Source of the DNA: Nitrospinaceae bacterium | GTDB taxonomy: Bacteria; Nitrospinota_A; UBA7883; JAJDBK01 | DNA: 64,000 nt | Direction: 5' to 3' | Assembly: GCA_029261405.1 (NCBI GenBank) | Contig: JAJDBK010000024.1 | Span: forward strand, 1 to 64,000 | Shown here: positions 1,421 through 8,005 of the stretch, piece by piece | Position numbering within the stretch: the first letter of the stretch is position 1 | Layout of the letters: every line of letters begins with the position of its first letter | Translations under genes and position numbers: made by a program | Notes under the pieces: model-generated | What the model was told of the DNA's origin: nothing | Database searches by the model: none | Seen by the model: the letters and a program-made list of their open reading frames with translations, nothing else

Positions 1421-1560
1421 TATCGTGAAATTTCACAATACCCGATTGTGAAAAAATAAAATTCACAATAATAATTTCTCCATTCATAACAAGCACATAC
1501 AGCCCATCAAGACATGGATACGTACTTTTATTGTGAAATATTACAGATAGAGATTGTGAG
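1421..1560. promoter_or_regulatory. Cluster of TTGTGAA inverted-repeat sites upstream of the HTH gene
   Basis: Four related sites lie within 140 bp just upstream of the HTH gene. Site A contains the perfect 12-bp palindrome GTGAAATTTCAC (1425-1436). Site B is ATTGTGAA (1445-1452) and TTCACAAT (1462-1469), a perfect 8-bp inverted repeat around an A/T-only 9-base spacer. Site C is TTGTGAAATATTACA (1531-1545), a partial palindrome. Site D is GATTGTGAG (1552-1560). The shared core is TTGTGAAATTTCACAA. The arrangement suits an operator for the adjacent HTH protein, an excisionase-binding region, or an origin element. Half-site spacing differs from the TGTGA-N6-TCACA of CRP. Confidence 0.55.
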
Positions 1561-1601
1561 AGCTACATGAAGCAAACAATCGAAGAATGGAGTAACCAGA
1601 A

Positions 1602-1832
1602 ATGGCTAAGGAAAGTACAGCGAAAGATGACAACCTCTTGAAAGAAGATTCCGCTGCGAGGATCCTCGGAGTAAAAGTCAAAACAATGCAGAAATGGCGA
1701 TGGACCGGTAGTGGACCAAAGTTCGTAAAAATATCTGGTAGGTGTGTTCGCTACCGCCGAATGGACATTGATGAATGGGTGGACAGTCACCTGATATCAA
1801 GTGCCGAGGATATAGAGAAGGGGGATGCGTAA
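1602..1832 (+). CDS. Excisionase/AlpA-type helix-turn-helix DNA-binding protein
   Basis: This 76-aa protein fits the small HTH_17/excisionase fold. After a charged leader, residues about 12-60 carry the pattern LLKEDSAARILGVKVKTMQKWR, then a wing with GPKFVKISGRCVRYRRMDIDEW. The ending 'VRYRRMDIDEWVDS' is characteristic of AlpA/Xis-like proteins, in which the helix-turn-helix reads DNA and the wing contacts the minor groove. Such proteins switch on or direct excision of integrative elements, or activate their replication genes. It sits directly downstream of the TTGTGAA site cluster, which is a natural target. Its stop codon overlaps the next ATG by one base (TAATG), so it is the first gene of the element's operon. 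Confidence 0.75.
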   Translation: MAKESTAKDDNLLKEDSAARILGVKVKTMQKWRWTGSGPKFVKISGRCVRYRRMDIDEWVDSHLISSAEDIEKGDA

Positions 1833-1984
1833 TGAAAAACGAAGGGCACTTCAAACCAGGTGTAGCGGACATTGATGCACGGGGAAAGTTCATACGATTC
1901 AAGTGTAGACGAACCCTGGATATTGAGCATTTGAAGACGCCTCGGCAGACCCTGGAACGGACCATAGGGTCATCGAGGTCTTAA
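1832..1984 (+). CDS. Small basic protein of 50 aa, function unknown
   Basis: The ATG at 1832 overlaps the stop of the HTH gene (TAATG), and its own TAA overlaps the ATG of the primase-helicase at 1984 in the same way. Translational coupling at both ends argues that it is really translated. GGGGG at 1820-1824 can serve as ribosome-binding site. The product is rich in Lys and Arg (for example FIRFKCRRTLDIEHLKTPRQ) and has a single cysteine. No family is recognised. It might be a regulator, a replication accessory, or simply a coupling peptide that sets primase translation. Confidence 0.5.
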   Translation: MKNEGHFKPGVADIDARGKFIRFKCRRTLDIEHLKTPRQTLERTIGSSRS

Positions 1985-4791
1985 TGAACACCCATCCTCA
2001 ACAAAAACTGAATGCAGACCAAGTCCGGAACGCCGCCCAAGGGCAATGGCATAACATCCTTGTCAGCTTAGGGGCGGATCCTTCATCCTTGGATGGAAAA
2101 CACCACCCCTGTCCGGCTTGCGGCGGCTCGGACCGGTTCCGTTTCGACAACCAGAACGGAAACGGGTCATATTTCTGCAACCAATGTGGGGCCGGTGACG
2201 GTTTCTCCCTGGCCGGAAAACTTCTGGGTTTGTGTCCCAAACGGGATTTCCGAGACATCCTGGCGCAGGTGGAAGAACTGGTTGGGGGGGCTGAAACGCC
2301 ACACAATCAGCAACGCCCCCCAAAATCTACCATCACGAAAACCGAGTCCTGGGAGCCGATCACCCCTGTTCCAGATGATGCTCCAGAGCCTTCGGCCCAT
2401 TACAAGATGGGAACTCCCTCTCAGGTATGGGTCTACAGAGATGCCCTGAATCGCATTCTATGCTATGTCTGCCGGTTCGACCTGCCGGAAGGCGGAAAAC
2501 AAATTCTCCCTCTAACCTTCTGTCTTGGGTCGGACGGAAAACGGGAATGGAGGTGGAAGGGACTTCAAACCCCTCGACCACTCTACAACCTGGACAAGCT
2601 CGCCTCAAATCCCGAAGCCGGAGTAATCTTTACCGAAGGGGAGAAGGCAGCTGAGGCGGCGGCAATACTCTTCCCGGACTTTGTGGCGACAACCTCCTTG
2701 AACGGTGCCAAATCGGCAGGTAAGTCGGACTTCTCTGCCTTGGAGGGGAGGGATGTCACAATTTGGCCGGACCACGATGCTGAAGGACAGCTCTTCGCGG
2801 AAGCGGTTCTGCTGGAATTGCAGAAGGTTGGAGTAGCATCGGTCCAGATACTGCGAGTTCCGTTTACACACCATCCTCGGATGAATAACGATGGTAAACC
2901 AGAATTGGAAGCCGGTTTCGTCGCCCCGGAGAAGTGGGACGCGGCAGATGCCCTGGCCGATGGATGGACGCCTGGACATATAAATCTGTTAAGAAGTGAC
3001 TCATCATTCTTAATGCCCTCCCCTGAAGATTGGAAAGATACAACCCTGAAAATGGACCCCCAGCAGGAACAAGTGAAATCCAAGTCGAATGCGAACCAGA
3101 CCGAGAGCCATTTTAAAGTGAAAACAACTGGTGTCTGGTATGAATCCCCGGCAAAAGATCCAGATGACGACCCGCCCGCACCGGTGTGGATCTGTTCCCG
3201 TCTGGAAATTACGGCCCGCACCAGAGACGACCGCCAGGGAAATCATGGCAGGCTCCTCGAATTTGATGATCCCGACGACCACCATCATGCCTGGGCCATG
3301 CCTCTGGATATTTTGGCCGGTGACGGAACTGAATGCCGAAGGGAACTACTCAGCATGGGGCTGGAGATTACTCCGAATCGCAAGGCGCGTGAGTACTTGT
3401 CCGCATACATTCAAGCTTCCCAACCAGAGGCGGTGGCTCGTTGTGTGGACCGGACCGGTTGGAACAAAAGCGCGTTTGTTCTCCCTGATGAAACCATTGG
3501 TGAGAGTAAGGAACGGGTGCTGTTGCAAACCGTCGTAGCGAATCATCACGGCTTTGAGGTGGCCGGTAAACCAGCCGATTGGCAACGGGATATCGGTATG
3601 AAGTGTGCGGGTAACTCTCGACTTGTGTTTGCCGTAAGCTGTGCGTTCACGCCCCCTCTGCTCCATTGGGTGGGGGAAGAATCAGGTGGATTCAATTTTA
3701 CTGGGCAGAGCTCAACGGGCAAAACAACAGCGTTAACGGTAGCGGTTTCAGTGTGGGGAGGGCCGGAACGGATGCAACGGTGGCGGGCTACGTCCAATGG
3801 GCTGGAGGCGGTGGCCCTGAACCACAATGACACTCTCTTGTGTTTGGATGAGCTGGCACAGGTTGACCCTCGGGAAGCTGGAGAAATCGCCTATATGCTG
3901 GCAAACGGAACCGGTAAAGCCCGTTCTAAAAGGGATGGCACGGCCAAGAAAAAGGCGGTTTGGCGGATATTCTTTCTCAGCGCTGGTGAGATCGGGCTGA
4001 ATGAACATATGCGTCAAGCGGGTAAGCGGGCCAGAGCCGGTCAAGAGGTGAGGCTTGTAGATATTCCAGCGGATGCAGGAGCCGGACATGGACTGTTTGA
4101 AAACCTGCATGACCATTCTGGTGGGGCGGATTTCTCCCGGGCGCTGAATACGGCGGCCCGCTCCTTCTACGGAACACCTGCCCGGGAGTTCATCAAGCGA
4201 TTGGTTTCTAATTTGAATGGGGCGGTTTCTGACATCGATGCATTCCGCAAAGAGTTTCTGGCCGAGAACCTCCCCGCCAAGGCTGATGGACAGGCTCATA
4301 GGGTAGCTGGTCGGTTCGCGCTGGTAGCCGCTGCCGGGGAGCTGGCAACGGCTATGGGAATTACCGGATGGGAACCGGGGGAATCCATCAAGGCGGCCCG
4401 TACCTGTCTGAATGACTGGATAAAGGACCGGGGCGGGATTGGTCCCCGGGAGAGTGAAGCGGCCCTGGCCCAGGTCAGATTATTCTTTGAACAGCATGGG
4501 GAGAGCCGGTTTTCCAAAAAGATCGGAGTTGACGACCGACCCACTATAAATCGAGCAGGTTTTTCCAACAATGACGGAGACCACACCGAGTATTGGGTTT
4601 TACCCGAAGTGTTTCAGACTGAAATATGCGGAGGAATTGATTCCAAGTTTGTGGCCCGTTTGCTGGTGGAGCGGGGATGGATTGTTCCGGAGAAGAATGG
4701 TAAAACCGTTTCGTCACATCGTTTGCCGGGTATGGGATCAAAGCGTTGTTACCATTTCCTGGGTGAAATTATGGACGGAGACACGCCATGA
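1984..4791 (+). CDS. Primase-helicase: zinc finger, TOPRIM and DUF927-like ATPase domains
   Basis: This 935-aa protein is the replication protein of the element. The N-terminus has a primase-type zinc-binding motif with Cys43, Cys46, Cys65 and Cys68 (CPAC...FCNQC). Residues about 213-285 form a TOPRIM-like domain (VIFTEGEKAAEAAA, then WPDHDAEG supplying acidic metal ligands). Residues about 390-720 match the DUF927 superfamily-III-like helicase domain. Walker A is GQSSTGKTT at 574-582 (Lys580), followed by a LLCLDELAQ Walker B. The combination primes and unwinds DNA at an origin, as the alpha protein of phage P4 does. It starts at the TAATG overlap with the 50-aa gene, and its last four bases overlap the next ATG. 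The region 2340-3170 between TOPRIM and ATPase is linker-like. No frameshift is visible, so the replicon may be functional. Confidence 0.85.
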   Translation: MNTHPQQKLNADQVRNAAQGQWHNILVSLGADPSSLDGKHHPCPACGGSDRFRFDNQNGNGSYFCNQCGAGDGFSLAGKLLGLCPKRDFRDILAQVEELVGGAETPHNQQRPPKSTITKTESWEPITPVPDDAPEPSAHYKMGTPSQVWVYRDALNRILCYVCRFDLPEGGKQILPLTFCLGSDGKREWRWKGLQTPRPLYNLDKLASNPEAGVIFTEGEKAAEAAAILFPDFVATTSLNGAKSAGKSDFSALEGRDVTIWPDHDAEGQLFAEAVLLELQKVGVASVQILRVPFTHHPRMNNDGKPELEAGFVAPEKWDAADALADGWTPGHINLLRSDSSFLMPSPEDWKDTTLKMDPQQEQVKSKSNANQTESHFKVKTTGVWYESPAKDPDDDPPAPVWICSRLEITARTRDDRQGNHGRLLEFDDPDDHHHAWAMPLDILAGDGTECRRELLSMGLEITPNRKAREYLSAYIQASQPEAVARCVDRTGWNKSAFVLPDETIGESKERVLLQTVVANHHGFEVAGKPADWQRDIGMKCAGNSRLVFAVSCAFTPPLLHWVGEESGGFNFTGQSSTGKTTALTVAVSVWGGPERMQRWRATSNGLEAVALNHNDTLLCLDELAQVDPREAGEIAYMLANGTGKARSKRDGTAKKKAVWRIFFLSAGEIGLNEHMRQAGKRARAGQEVRLVDIPADAGAGHGLFENLHDHSGGADFSRALNTAARSFYGTPAREFIKRLVSNLNGAVSDIDAFRKEFLAENLPAKADGQAHRVAGRFALVAAAGELATAMGITGWEPGESIKAARTCLNDWIKDRGGIGPRESEAALAQVRLFFEQHGESRFSKKIGVDDRPTINRAGFSNNDGDHTEYWVLPEVFQTEICGGIDSKFVARLLVERGWIVPEKNGKTVSSHRLPGMGSKRCYHFLGEIMDGDTP

Positions 4792-5660
4792 GATTGGATC
4801 ACTTTGATGCGTGGATTCCGGGACCATCTGAATTCGACATCCAGCTATCCGATAAAGATGAGTTTGTAAAGCCATCTCAGGTAAATGGGGCGGAAACAGC
4901 TTCGGTTTCTTACCGGGATAAACATAAAACTGAAACAGCAATTGGGAGTGAAAGTGATTCATCTATAAAAAACGGGGTAACGAGGGTAACAAGGGTAACA
5001 AATTCTGCAAAACCCAATAACGACGCGGGTTTCACGGGTGTACCGCCTGTTACCCAAAATGAAATCGGGAAGGGTAACGTGGGTAACACTACATCGCCAC
5101 TAACCGCCAGCGTTACCCACGTTACCCAAGAGGAAAACAGCATGGGTAACACAAATGATTCATGTAAGCCACATAAAGACAACGAATTACAAGAAGCGTT
5201 ACCCTTGTCACCCTTGTTACCCAGAAAAACGGGTAACACTGACTTGCACCAGAAATTTCAACTTTCAGTTTCAGGATTGGAACATCCTTTGCCGGTCGCG
5301 GAAGATCAGCGGACCAGTGTTCTTACAGCTTTGGATACGTTGTTTAGGGAACATGGTCCTCATCTGAAAGCCAATGGCTGGAACCGGGACAACTTGCTTC
5401 ATGGACTCGACCCGACCACTGCGACAGCCATACCGCTTCTTCTGGTGGATGGAGTCACGTTGATCAATGTGGAGTGGAGCCACTTGGAATTCGATACCAG
5501 AGCAGGAAGCTTGATCGTGGTTCGTCCAGGGTTGTGGCTCGTTGGTGAAGATGCTGAGGATTGGAAGGAGATATTCGAAGAGCGGGCCGCCATCAGGGAA
5601 TACGATGGAGGCCAGAGCCGGGTAGAAGCGGAAATGGCCGCTCTTAAGGAGATGGTGTAG
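4788..5660 (+). CDS. Unknown 290-aa protein with iteron-bearing linker, coupled to primase
   Basis: It starts at an ATG that overlaps the primase-helicase stop (ATGA), so it is translated with it. Residues about 60-155 are low complexity with recurring Val-Thr, Gly-Asn and Leu-Pro pairs (VTRVTRVTN, GNVGNTT, VTHVTQ, LPLSPLLPR). These result from the GGGTAAC/GTTACCC DNA array rather than from a conserved peptide. The C-terminal half (about 165-290) looks globular and mixed alpha/beta (LDTLFREHGPHLKANGW, AIPLLLVDGVTLINVEW, LWLVGEDAEDWKEIF). No family is recognised. Position next to the primase suggests a replication accessory or origin-binding partner. The linker may exist mainly to host a DNA site without breaking the reading frame. 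Confidence 0.6.
   Translation: MRLDHFDAWIPGPSEFDIQLSDKDEFVKPSQVNGAETASVSYRDKHKTETAIGSESDSSIKNGVTRVTRVTNSAKPNNDAGFTGVPPVTQNEIGKGNVGNTTSPLTASVTHVTQEENSMGNTNDSCKPHKDNELQEALPLSPLLPRKTGNTDLHQKFQLSVSGLEHPLPVAEDQRTSVLTALDTLFREHGPHLKANGWNRDNLLHGLDPTTATAIPLLLVDGVTLINVEWSHLEFDTRAGSLIVVRPGLWLVGEDAEDWKEIFEERAAIREYDGGQSRVEAEMAALKEMV
4975..5237. repeat. GGGTAAC/GTTACCC heptamer array, candidate iterons
   Basis: Twelve exact copies occur in 263 bp. Plus orientation starts are 4975, 4984, 4993, 5072, 5081, 5144 and 5231. Minus orientation (GTTACCC) starts are 5049, 5112, 5121, 5198 and 5216. A one-mismatch copy GTCACCC lies at 5207. Neighbouring copies are repeatedly spaced exactly 9 bp. The copies are read in different codon phases (Val-Thr, Gly-Asn, reverse Val-Thr, reverse Leu-Pro), so the conserved item is DNA, not peptide. 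P4-type satellites replicate from iterons bound by their primase-helicase; by analogy this array is a candidate origin or copy-control region. That role is inference. Confidence 0.8.
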
Positions 5661-5774
5661 AGAAGCTCTTTACACGCAAATAACCCCATGTTGACCACCA
5701 CCACCTCACAACCGATAATGGAAGCGTTCCTTATGGAACTGCGCCAGGGTTGCGAGTCAAGGAGGTGGAGAGGG

Positions 5775-7037
5775 ATGATTGTTTTTTTACAACCAGCAAG
5801 AGGCCACGACAAATGTCGGGTAAAAGTGGCTGGTGGTGGATTATGTGGAAACCCGATGAGGAGGGAGATGGCTTTCGTCTGTCCGCTTCACGGGAAAGGG
5901 CCGGATCGAATGGTTCTGACTTTTAAAGGGCAGGACGTTGCTGATTTAACAGGGAAAAACAAATATGACCTGAGATACGACAACGATAATATCCCGATAT
6001 CGTATGAGAAGGCCAAGTACCTGTTAAAGAAGATACAGGAAGAACAGAGTCGTGGCACGTTTAACATTCGCCATTATGTGGAGAAGAACCGAGACCAGCT
6101 TCGATTTAGATTTTATGTTGAATCATATTTCCATCATCTTCAAGCCAGAGCGGATCGGGATGAATTCTCGGCCCCAAATTTGGAACTACAGAGGGCGCAA
6201 GCCTCCCGCCATTTGTCATTTTTCGATGATTACGACGTTAGAGAGATCAATAGAGGGCTGATAACCAGGTGGTTTGACAGCCATGAAGCGTCTGCCAAAA
6301 CGAAAAACAAGACAATGGTCTTGCTTCGGACCATCCTTAATTGGGCCTACGACAACGAGGATATCAACGAGAAACCACGCCGTATGCCATTCGCTTCCAT
6401 CCCAAGTGAAAACCCCATGGCTCTCACGCGAGACCAGCAGGAATTGATAATCCGGTGCGCGAAAGAGAAGCACAAAATTATTCTCTCATTCGGGATGGAG
6501 ACGATGCACCGCCCTTCTGTTATCCGCGCCCTGAAAGTGAAAGATATCGACTGGAGTCGGGGCGTTTACACAACCTGTAGACGATGGCAAGGAGACAAGG
6601 TGGTGCCGGGGTTAAAGACCAAGCGGAAATCAGCAGAATATCCGATCCGCCCGGAGTTGCGAATTCTTTTCACGGAAGCTCTGAAAGATAGATTGATTGG
6701 CCCGGAGACTTTCGTTTTCGAGAACCAGAGGGCAAAAGGAAAGTGGAAACCCTACACCCGACAAGCTCTGTCATTCGCTTTTACTTTTGCCAGGGACGAG
6801 GCTGGGCTTAAAGGAGGGATAACTCTCTACTCATTTATTCGACATAGTGGAGCCTCCCAAATGGCGGACGTTGGAGTCCCTGGAGACATGATAGCGGAGG
6901 TCATGGACAACACGGCTCCTGTTGTAAGAAAACATTACAGATCAGTGACCGCAGAATCAATGGCGAAAGTGTTCGATTTTGCAAAGAGGTCGCAAAAGGT
7001 CGCAAAACGAAAGGACAGCGAACAAAGTGGCATGTAA
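5775..7037 (+). CDS. Tyrosine recombinase (integrase) of the element
   Basis: A phage-type site-specific recombinase of 420 aa. I place the start at ATG 5775 because AAGGAGG (5759-5765) lies 9 bases upstream; the same frame is open from an ATG at 5688 with no ribosome-binding site. Catalytic features in this numbering are Arg246 (MHRPSVIRALKVKDID), a lysine-bearing GLKTKRKSAEYPI strand, Arg356-His357 (YSFIRHSGAS) and the nucleophile Tyr388 (VRKHYRS). The usual first His of the HxxR box is Ser here, and the second His/Trp position falls in MDNTAP. The N-terminus has Cys14, Cys24, Cys36 and His39 (FVCPLH), a possible small zinc-binding module. Residues about 90-200 form the core-binding (SAM-like) domain. 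It lies at the element edge next to a broken tRNA-Leu, as integrases usually do. Confidence 0.85.
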   Translation: MIVFLQPARGHDKCRVKVAGGGLCGNPMRREMAFVCPLHGKGPDRMVLTFKGQDVADLTGKNKYDLRYDNDNIPISYEKAKYLLKKIQEEQSRGTFNIRHYVEKNRDQLRFRFYVESYFHHLQARADRDEFSAPNLELQRAQASRHLSFFDDYDVREINRGLITRWFDSHEASAKTKNKTMVLLRTILNWAYDNEDINEKPRRMPFASIPSENPMALTRDQQELIIRCAKEKHKIILSFGMETMHRPSVIRALKVKDIDWSRGVYTTCRRWQGDKVVPGLKTKRKSAEYPIRPELRILFTEALKDRLIGPETFVFENQRAKGKWKPYTRQALSFAFTFARDEAGLKGGITLYSFIRHSGASQMADVGVPGDMIAEVMDNTAPVVRKHYRSVTAESMAKVFDFAKRSQKVAKRKDSEQSGM

Positions 7038-7054
7038 AATCAATGACTTAGACG

Positions 7055-7105
7055 AAACACCCAAGAACCTGAATCATGCACGTCTACCAATTCCGTCACT
7101 TCGGC
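7055..7105 (-). pseudogene. 5' half of a tRNA-Leu (anticodon CAG), 3' half missing
   Basis: On the minus strand the sequence from 7105 downward begins GCCGAAG (acceptor 5' strand, 7105-7099), then TG, a D-arm ACGGAATTGGTAGACGTGC, then an anticodon arm with loop TTCAGGT. The CAG anticodon is complementary to plus 7069-7071. Four of five anticodon-stem pairs form, with one T-T mismatch. After the start of the variable arm the similarity stops: there is no T-arm (GGTTCGA) and no CTTCGGC to close the acceptor. The integrase stop codon is only 18 bases away. This is the usual picture of integration into a tRNA gene, but the retained piece is the 5' half, which is less common. Confidence 0.75.
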
Positions 7106-7123
7106 ATCAACTAAGCGACGTTT

Positions 7124-7129
7124 ATTATA
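7124..7129 (-). promoter_or_regulatory. -10 element of the disrupted tRNA-Leu
   Basis: Read on the minus strand this is a perfect TATAAT, ending 18 bases before the tRNA 5' end and followed by a GTCGC discriminator-like stretch. No good -35 hexamer is seen at 16-18 bases. It should still fire leftward, through the tRNA stub and into the 3' end of the integrase gene in antisense. Confidence 0.5.
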
Positions 7130-7162
7130 GCTGGAAATGTCCGTAAAGAAACATTTAATCAC

Positions 7163-8005
7163 TCATTTTTTCAGAACCTTTGAACCGGCTATGCTCTCCC
7201 CCATCTTTATCGCCTGACGATTATTTTTTACCTCGTGGGTTCTTATTATCGACGCGCCCCTGAGAGCCGATATCGCCGATACCGCCAGCGTTCCCGCTTC
7301 CCTCTCTTCCACCGGCAGATCAAGTGCCAAACCGATGAATGATTTTCTTGAAGCGCCGATCATCACCGGGTATCCGAGTTTTCCAAAGCTCTCTATTCCA
7401 TCTATTATTTGCAGGTTATGCCTGTATGTTTTTCCAAATCCAATACCCGGATCGAGGATAATCTTCGTCACTCCCGCCCTTTTGCAATCCCTTATTCTAA
7501 CGCGGAAAAACTGGACGATATCCTTCACCACATCTTTATAAACGGGTCTTTTGGGCATGGCGCCAGGTTTCCCTTTCATGTGCATTATCACTACAGGGAC
7601 ACCGGTTTCAGAGGCTATTTCGAGCATTTCAGGGTTGGTCAGGCCGGTGATGTCGTTCAACACGGCGGCGCCTGCTGAGATGGCCGCTCTGGCAACTTTC
7701 GGTTTATAAGTGTCAATCGATACGGGAATTTTGGGGAAACTTTTGACAATCTCCCGAATTACCGGGATAACCCTCGCCGATTCCTCCTCCTCCGCAACCG
7801 CACTGGCTCCGGGTCGGGTCGATTCACCGCCTATATCGATGATGTCGGCTCCGTCCCGAACCAGCTCCCCTGCCCTTTTCATGGCGTTCGATTTTTTCAG
7901 GAACCGGCCCCCATCAGAGAAGGAGTCGGGGGTCACGTTGAGAATCCCCATCACAAGCGTACGCTTGAACGAAAAGCGGTACCGCCCGTATCGGTAGGGG
8001 TTCAT
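7163..8005 (-). CDS. folP: Dihydropteroate synthase
   Basis: It joins 6-hydroxymethyl-dihydropterin pyrophosphate with p-aminobenzoate in folate synthesis, in the cytoplasm. The 280-aa length is normal. Signature 1 is MGILNVTPDSFSDGG (residues 19-33), signature 2 is DIGGESTRPG (57-66), followed by NDITG near 118 for pterin binding and a GASRKSFIG loop near 217-225 for substrate. It starts 17 bases after the infB stop and is probably co-transcribed with the hemB-queH-rimP-nusA-infB operon. In many relatives folP instead pairs with ftsH and glmM. It is the last gene before the tRNA stub, so the mobile element marks the operon end. Confidence 0.95.
   Translation of the reverse strand: MNPYRYGRYRFSFKRTLVMGILNVTPDSFSDGGRFLKKSNAMKRAGELVRDGADIIDIGGESTRPGASAVAEEEESARVIPVIREIVKSFPKIPVSIDTYKPKVARAAISAGAAVLNDITGLTNPEMLEIASETGVPVVIMHMKGKPGAMPKRPVYKDVVKDIVQFFRVRIRDCKRAGVTKIILDPGIGFGKTYRHNLQIIDGIESFGKLGYPVMIGASRKSFIGLALDLPVEEREAGTLAVSAISALRGASIIRTHEVKNNRQAIKMGESIAGSKVLKK

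Follow-up and report, generated by a model that had tools for sequence, protein, structure and literature searches.

A GGGTAAC iteron array within a gene that overlaps a DUF927 primase-helicase gene, a putative replication origin of a small integrated element in Nitrospinaceae

In SaPI elements, the iterons recognised by the C-terminal domain of Rep follow directly after the rep gene (PMC7581432), and the lambda origin is placed within gene O, that is, inside a coding sequence (PMC3985674, PMC6022878). The locus described here was found in a 64,000-nucleotide stretch of the genome of a Nitrospinaceae bacterium (contig JAJDBK010000024.1, positions 1 to 64,000, called the window below). Like SaPIbov1 Rep and SCCmec Cch, which are self-loading helicases, its primase-helicase combined a DUF927 AAA+ core with a C-terminal winged helix, and short iterons lay directly 3' of it. 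Unlike in those systems, the helicase was fused to a zinc-ribbon/Toprim primase part, the array was placed inside the gene of a coupled protein, and the iteron words varied among proteobacterial relatives.

P4 also has iterons of mixed orientation with a 9-bp step (crr) just 3' of its primase-helicase gene alpha. Its type I repeat was annotated as TGTTCACC, i.e. GGTGAACA, which resembles GGGTAACA, a word of the relatives, while crr in the P4 record was outside any annotated gene, unlike the window array. None of the P4 capsid-hijacking genes sid, delta and psu was seen among the genes recognised at 1.2-7.1 kb of the window. In phage lambda the iterons are embedded in coding sequence as in the window (PMC3985674), but they are 19 bp long and belong to the initiator's own gene, whereas those of the window are 7-8 bp long and belong to the next gene. 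PICMI satellites are likewise compact, with int, alpA, a primase and small ORFs (PMC10803314); they carry a DUF3987/DUF5906 primase at fis, whereas the window had a DUF927 primase, a folP-like gene beyond the integrase and no fis site.

An initial annotation of this DNA had stated that no described system has this layout, which was too strong, since SaPI origins lie downstream of rep and the lambda origin lies in gene O; a DUF927 helicase with downstream iterons is a module type already known from SaPI and SCC elements. In the open-licence papers searched, no description was found of iterons in the linker of a gene beside a DUF927 initiator, or of co-variation between wing and iterons across Proteobacteria. 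The location in the downstream gene and the co-variation of wing and iterons appear to be new.

The element and its iteron array

The locus is a compact integrated element, in which only an alpA-like gene, a 50-aa ORF, the primase gene, the 290-aa gene and an integrase gene were recognised between 1.2 and 7.1 kb (Table 1). The chromosomal genes past the integrase were folP-like and infB-like, as read from their translations. As for att sites, the flanks 1-1750 and 7030-7300 shared no exact direct repeat of at least 10 bp, and PADLOC yielded no credible assignment to a defence system. Near the left end of the element, ATTGTGAAA-like sites (about six, on both strands) were observed, which are candidate excisionase/regulator sites or integrase arm sites. 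In addition, three 44-nt direct repeats with a 23-bp step, GTGGCCGATTTGAAGTGAAAT-like, were present at 47-136, the very start of the window.

Table 1 Features of the element (positions in the window)
Feature	Position	Strand	Remarks
Cluster of ATTGTGAAA-like sites	1422..1561	.	upstream of alpA, unrelated to the GGGTAAC array
AlpA/HTH_17-like regulator or excisionase	1602..1832	+	
50-aa ORF of unknown function	1832..1984	+	between alpA and primase
935-aa primase-helicase	1984..4791	+	zinc ribbon aa 38-74, weak Toprim, DUF927 AAA+ aa 377-657, C-terminal winged helix
Wing segment, aa 900-921	4681..4746	+	co-varies with the iteron word in relatives
ATGA overlap	4788..4791	+	primase stop / start of 290-aa gene; putative translational coupling
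290-aa ORF	4788..5660	+	array in disordered linker; N-terminus MRLDHFDAW..., middle domain, helical hairpin EERAAIREYDGGQSRVEAE
Iteron array	4975..5237	.	12 exact GGGTAAC (7 +, 5 -) and near-copy GGGTGAC; putative replication origin
A+T-rich spacer	5151..5197	.	66% A+T vs 50% for the window; from + iteron 5144 to - triplet 5198-5222
Tyrosine integrase	5688..7037	+	

The array started about 185 bp past the primase stop codon, within the next ORF, and the ATGA by which this gene had been said to be fused to the primase-helicase gene was present. All 12 exact heptamers of the initial annotation were recovered in the proposed orientations, starting at 4975, 4984, 4993, 5072, 5081, 5144 and 5231 on the plus strand and at 5049, 5112, 5121, 5198 and 5216 on the minus strand. 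The near-copy on the minus strand at 5207 gives a 13th site, which completes the minus triplet 5198/5207/5216. The recurrent 9-bp step, also claimed earlier, was seen in four groups (4975/4984/4993, 5072/5081, 5112/5121 and the minus triplet). The spacer ahead of this triplet is a candidate DNA-unwinding element.

The heptamer count was far above chance, as had been asserted: dinucleotide shuffles of the same 263 bp held 0.2 copies on average and 3 at most (n=5000) against the 12 observed, and the most repeated 7-mer of any kind reached no more than 8 copies per shuffle (n=2000). No other 7-mer was comparably clustered in the 64-kb window, and the element had no second GGGTAAC cluster. The spaced double heptamer GGGTAACNNGGGTAAC was found at the array and nowhere else in the 3.27-Mb genome.

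Arrays and array-bearing genes in relatives

Relatives were pulled by the primase alone from a three-sequence DUF927 alignment, one sequence of which (L007) had originally been found via its array, giving 80 genomic and 31 viral loci; the 87 non-redundant loci, the window included, were chosen regardless of arrays. A significant single-word array was present within 700 bp 3' of the primase in 56 of these 87 loci, compared with 1 of 84 control segments taken from within primase genes and 5 of 70 located further downstream. Within 2.5 kb 3' of the primase the number rose to 65, and the other 22 loci (about a quarter) had no clear array in the fetched flank. The array was the main repeated feature in the relatives and often flanked an A+T-rich core.

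The words of the elements included GGGGACA, GGGGGCA, GGGTACA, CGGTAACA, GGGCAACA, GGGGAACA, GGTGCTACA, GGTGGAACA, GGTGTAACA, GGTGTTACA, GTGGACA, GGGTAACA and others, mostly fitting (G)GNNN(A)ACA. The word changed at least 48 times among 61 rows on the helicase-core tree, a count in which undetermined flanking positions were scored as differences. When homologues were compared for GGGTAAC persisting while the linker varies, a check proposed earlier, the array did persist, but its word differed by element. Three contigs of a Rhodoferax UBA4127 assembly had TGGGGGCA in common, so a general avoidance of shared words by co-resident elements was rejected. At L154 (6653-6950), the primase ORF ran on in frame past the primase match, and a GTCCCCA array started in this extension, right at the 3' limit of the match. 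Two Azospirillum-type loci (L166:7060-7230 and L203:7060-7290) had a second, palindromic array GTGCGCAC, which was noncoding and located downstream of the iteron gene.

Protein searches with the 290-aa gene gave no matches in the phage and plasmid collections, but the window protein was recovered at E=1.8e-14 by a C-terminal hairpin profile from which it had been left out. In an AlphaFold model of the 290-aa protein, made from a shallow alignment of 11 sequences, pLDDT was below 50 over most of residues 14-169, the array included, and about 97 for the C-terminal hairpin. The hairpin domain was found downstream of the primase in 12 loci including the window (two being copies of one sequence), where the array usually came after a conserved N-terminal motif and before the hairpin. 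About ten relatives had their array in the linker of a homologous small gene with both ends conserved; in other relatives the array was noncoding. L102, which is from a Magnetococcales genome and was nearest to the window in the tree, encoded a 308-aa counterpart with start, linker, middle domain and end as in the window, and with CGGGGACA iterons instead. A minimal version of the array gene was carried by L178 (6692-6895), where both protein ends were kept but the linker and the array were absent. The small protein thus seems able to do without the linker.

GGGTAAC arrays were also sought by a DNA-only scan of viral contigs. Three closely spaced GGGTAAC occurred in 91 stretches, 49 of which held mixed-orientation clusters of at least five, compared with 24 stretches and 1 such cluster for the reversed-heptamer control. 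Many of these viral arrays were noncoding and flanked an A+T-rich core. Beside noncoding arrays, the three typed neighbours at L010, L019 and L024, picked since their arrays lay beside long ORFs weakly similar to the window primase, were all DUF927+HTH_56 proteins. Where typed arrays lay beside ORFs lacking such similarity, the neighbours were VapE-like, AAA_25/Toprim or of other kinds, and at L005 the ORF beside the array had no match. VapE-like (PF05272) primase-helicases, a different initiator family with the same heptamer, adjoined the arrays at L048:4602-4877, L006:3354-3432 and L047:1227-1493, while AAA_25 and Toprim_3 proteins adjoined those at L012:2905-3014 and L070:4673-4784. At L017:51-309, an ORF containing ten GGGTAAC directly preceded the gene of a phage terminase large subunit, not a primase gene.

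The initiator and its wing

The window primase matched DUF927 (PF06048) at E=2.5e-96, with HTH_56 below the cut-off by sequence. The AlphaFold model of the helicase part (559 aa, pLDDT 92) had SCCmec Cch (5dgk, TM 0.70) and SaPIbov1 Rep (8tch, TM 0.59) as its best PDB matches in Foldseek. The protein had been compared with the primase-helicase of P4-like satellites: the adjacent primase-helicase is the probable reader of the iterons, but the protein is of the DUF927 SaPIbov1-Rep/Cch kind, and P4 alpha/crr is an analogue.

Co-variation between initiator and iterons was followed with hand-aligned iteron words. A mutual-information screen gave a noisy signal, which for some iteron positions peaked in other parts of the protein, therefore the partial Mantel test was preferred. 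Corrected for helicase-core divergence, the correlation with word distance peaked at aa 900-921 (r=0.25, reached in 0 of 2000 permutations), and in the model this segment formed the wing hairpin following the last long helix of the winged domain. Among pairs with core identity above 75%, wing identity was 90% when the word was the same and 60% when it differed, compared with core identities of 91% and 85%. The iteron word apparently changes in step with a few initiator residues, the correlation being modest.

One Xanthobacter genome carried both L138 (word GGGGAACA) and L171 (word GGTGTTACA). Their primases were 95-100% identical over most of the compared C-terminal helicase half. Counted in blocks of 40 residues, identity stayed at 85-100% from near residue 160 of the segment compared until the block with the wing was reached; their wings read KPQVKTRLPNFAS and KLQSLQRLPGFAN, respectively. 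Their small proteins agreed at 12 of 13 residues of the N-terminus and at 43 of 46 of the C-terminus. L170 and L175, also with the word GGGGAACA, had the wings KPQIKTRLP and KPQVKTRLP, resembling that of L138. L166 and L203 were a second near-identical pair with changed wing and word. Gly-preceded Asn919 was accompanied by G at iteron position -2 in 9 of 9 cases, and G at -2 occurred once without this Gly-Asn pair; four independent pairs were concordant and none was against (p=0.125), too few for significance alone.

Origin, alternatives and possible roles

Taking the array, the selection on its DNA, its position 3' of the initiator in homologues and the co-variation of word and wing, the array very probably serves a small integrated DUF927 element as its replication origin, or as the part of the origin that the initiator binds, placed inside a translationally coupled gene and read by the element's own primase-helicase. 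The earlier proposal, an iteron origin with the adjacent primase-helicase as its putative reader, has strong support.

Since the array was wholly within an ORF whose ends are conserved, the repeats might be a by-product of a Val-Thr/Gly-Asn-rich linker, with the peptide under selection, but this is scarcely tenable. As had been noted, the heptamers are read as Val-Thr, Gly-Asn or Leu-Pro by phase: they fell in three frames and gave G/R-V-T, V-T-Q/H, G-N and L-P, and Val-Thr itself was spelled by two codon versions, each yielding an exact heptamer. When the 290-aa peptide was recoded synonymously with the element's own codon usage, the gene held 1.17 heptamers on average and at most 6 in 20,000 recodings, against the 12 observed. 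The same outcome was obtained for eight homologous genes, each with its own word. The clean test is that of the window, since a wrong frame was used for L204 at least and the starts of some homologues were approximate. In relatives the gene ends were kept while linker and word were altered, other arrays were noncoding, and L178 had no linker at all. Peptide-driven repetition was rejected on the recoding result, and selection on the array DNA rather than on the peptide, as first claimed, is strongly supported.

Two further readings accept the sites as DNA signals. An unlikely one is that the primase binds the array as a control locus (for copy number, incompatibility or autoregulation) while replication starts at another site of the element. 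The crr of P4 is in part such a locus, and P4 iterons occur 3' of alpha in crr and again in the distant ori1. The window element had no other GGGTAAC cluster, and in relatives the array was the main repeated feature, often around an A+T-rich core. Iteron arrays often double as incompatibility determinants, and an incompatibility or copy-control role for the array is possible. It is highly improbable that the heptamers serve the adjacent tyrosine integrase as arm-type sites, or that they are the sites at which the AlpA-like excisionase acts. Integrases do use short repeated arm sites, and the integrase gene started 450 bp downstream of the array. But an integrase was detectable in 31 relatives, usually 4-7 kb upstream of where the primase ends, and their arrays were still 3' of the primase. 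The prophage relative L173 had a phage portal gene after the array. Integrase arm sites were rejected on the gene order in the relatives. Moreover, the words co-varied with the primase wing, and the separate ATTGTGAAA cluster near alpA is a better arm/Xis candidate.

If the array is the origin, the C-terminal winged helix of the primase-helicase would bind the GGGTAAC(A) iterons in both orientations after excision. On the inverted iteron groups the initiator, probably as two oppositely loaded hexamers, would open the A+T-rich spacer, load itself and unwind the DNA, with priming by its N-terminal zinc-ribbon/Toprim part. The origin would be immediately 3' of the initiator gene, in a disordered linker which may tolerate almost any peptide and absorb the turnover of the word, and its place in a coupled downstream ORF would keep initiator and origin together in a very small element. 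Joint turnover of the word and wing residues may separate incompatible replicons, with co-resident elements not always different. It is proposed tentatively, at somewhat under even odds, that a conserved gene family with an MRDLFxxWA / MPDLSRFAxFAS start and an EERAAIxEYDGGxSRxEAE hairpin carries the origin of DUF927 elements in its linker, and that the origin word and a few wing residues change together as a readable recognition code (e.g. Asn919 with G at -2), switching replicon specificity between near-identical elements.

A group of unannotated proteins next to DUF927 primases have odd linkers rich in Val-Thr/Val-Pro, which under the origin reading would function as origin DNA, and putative origins can be placed in dozens of phages and islands of Proteobacteria. 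The pairs L138/L171 and L166/L203 are natural near-isogenic pairs, in which a few wing residues and the word differ while most of the helicase is the same, therefore initiator-iteron specificity and its evolution are directly testable.
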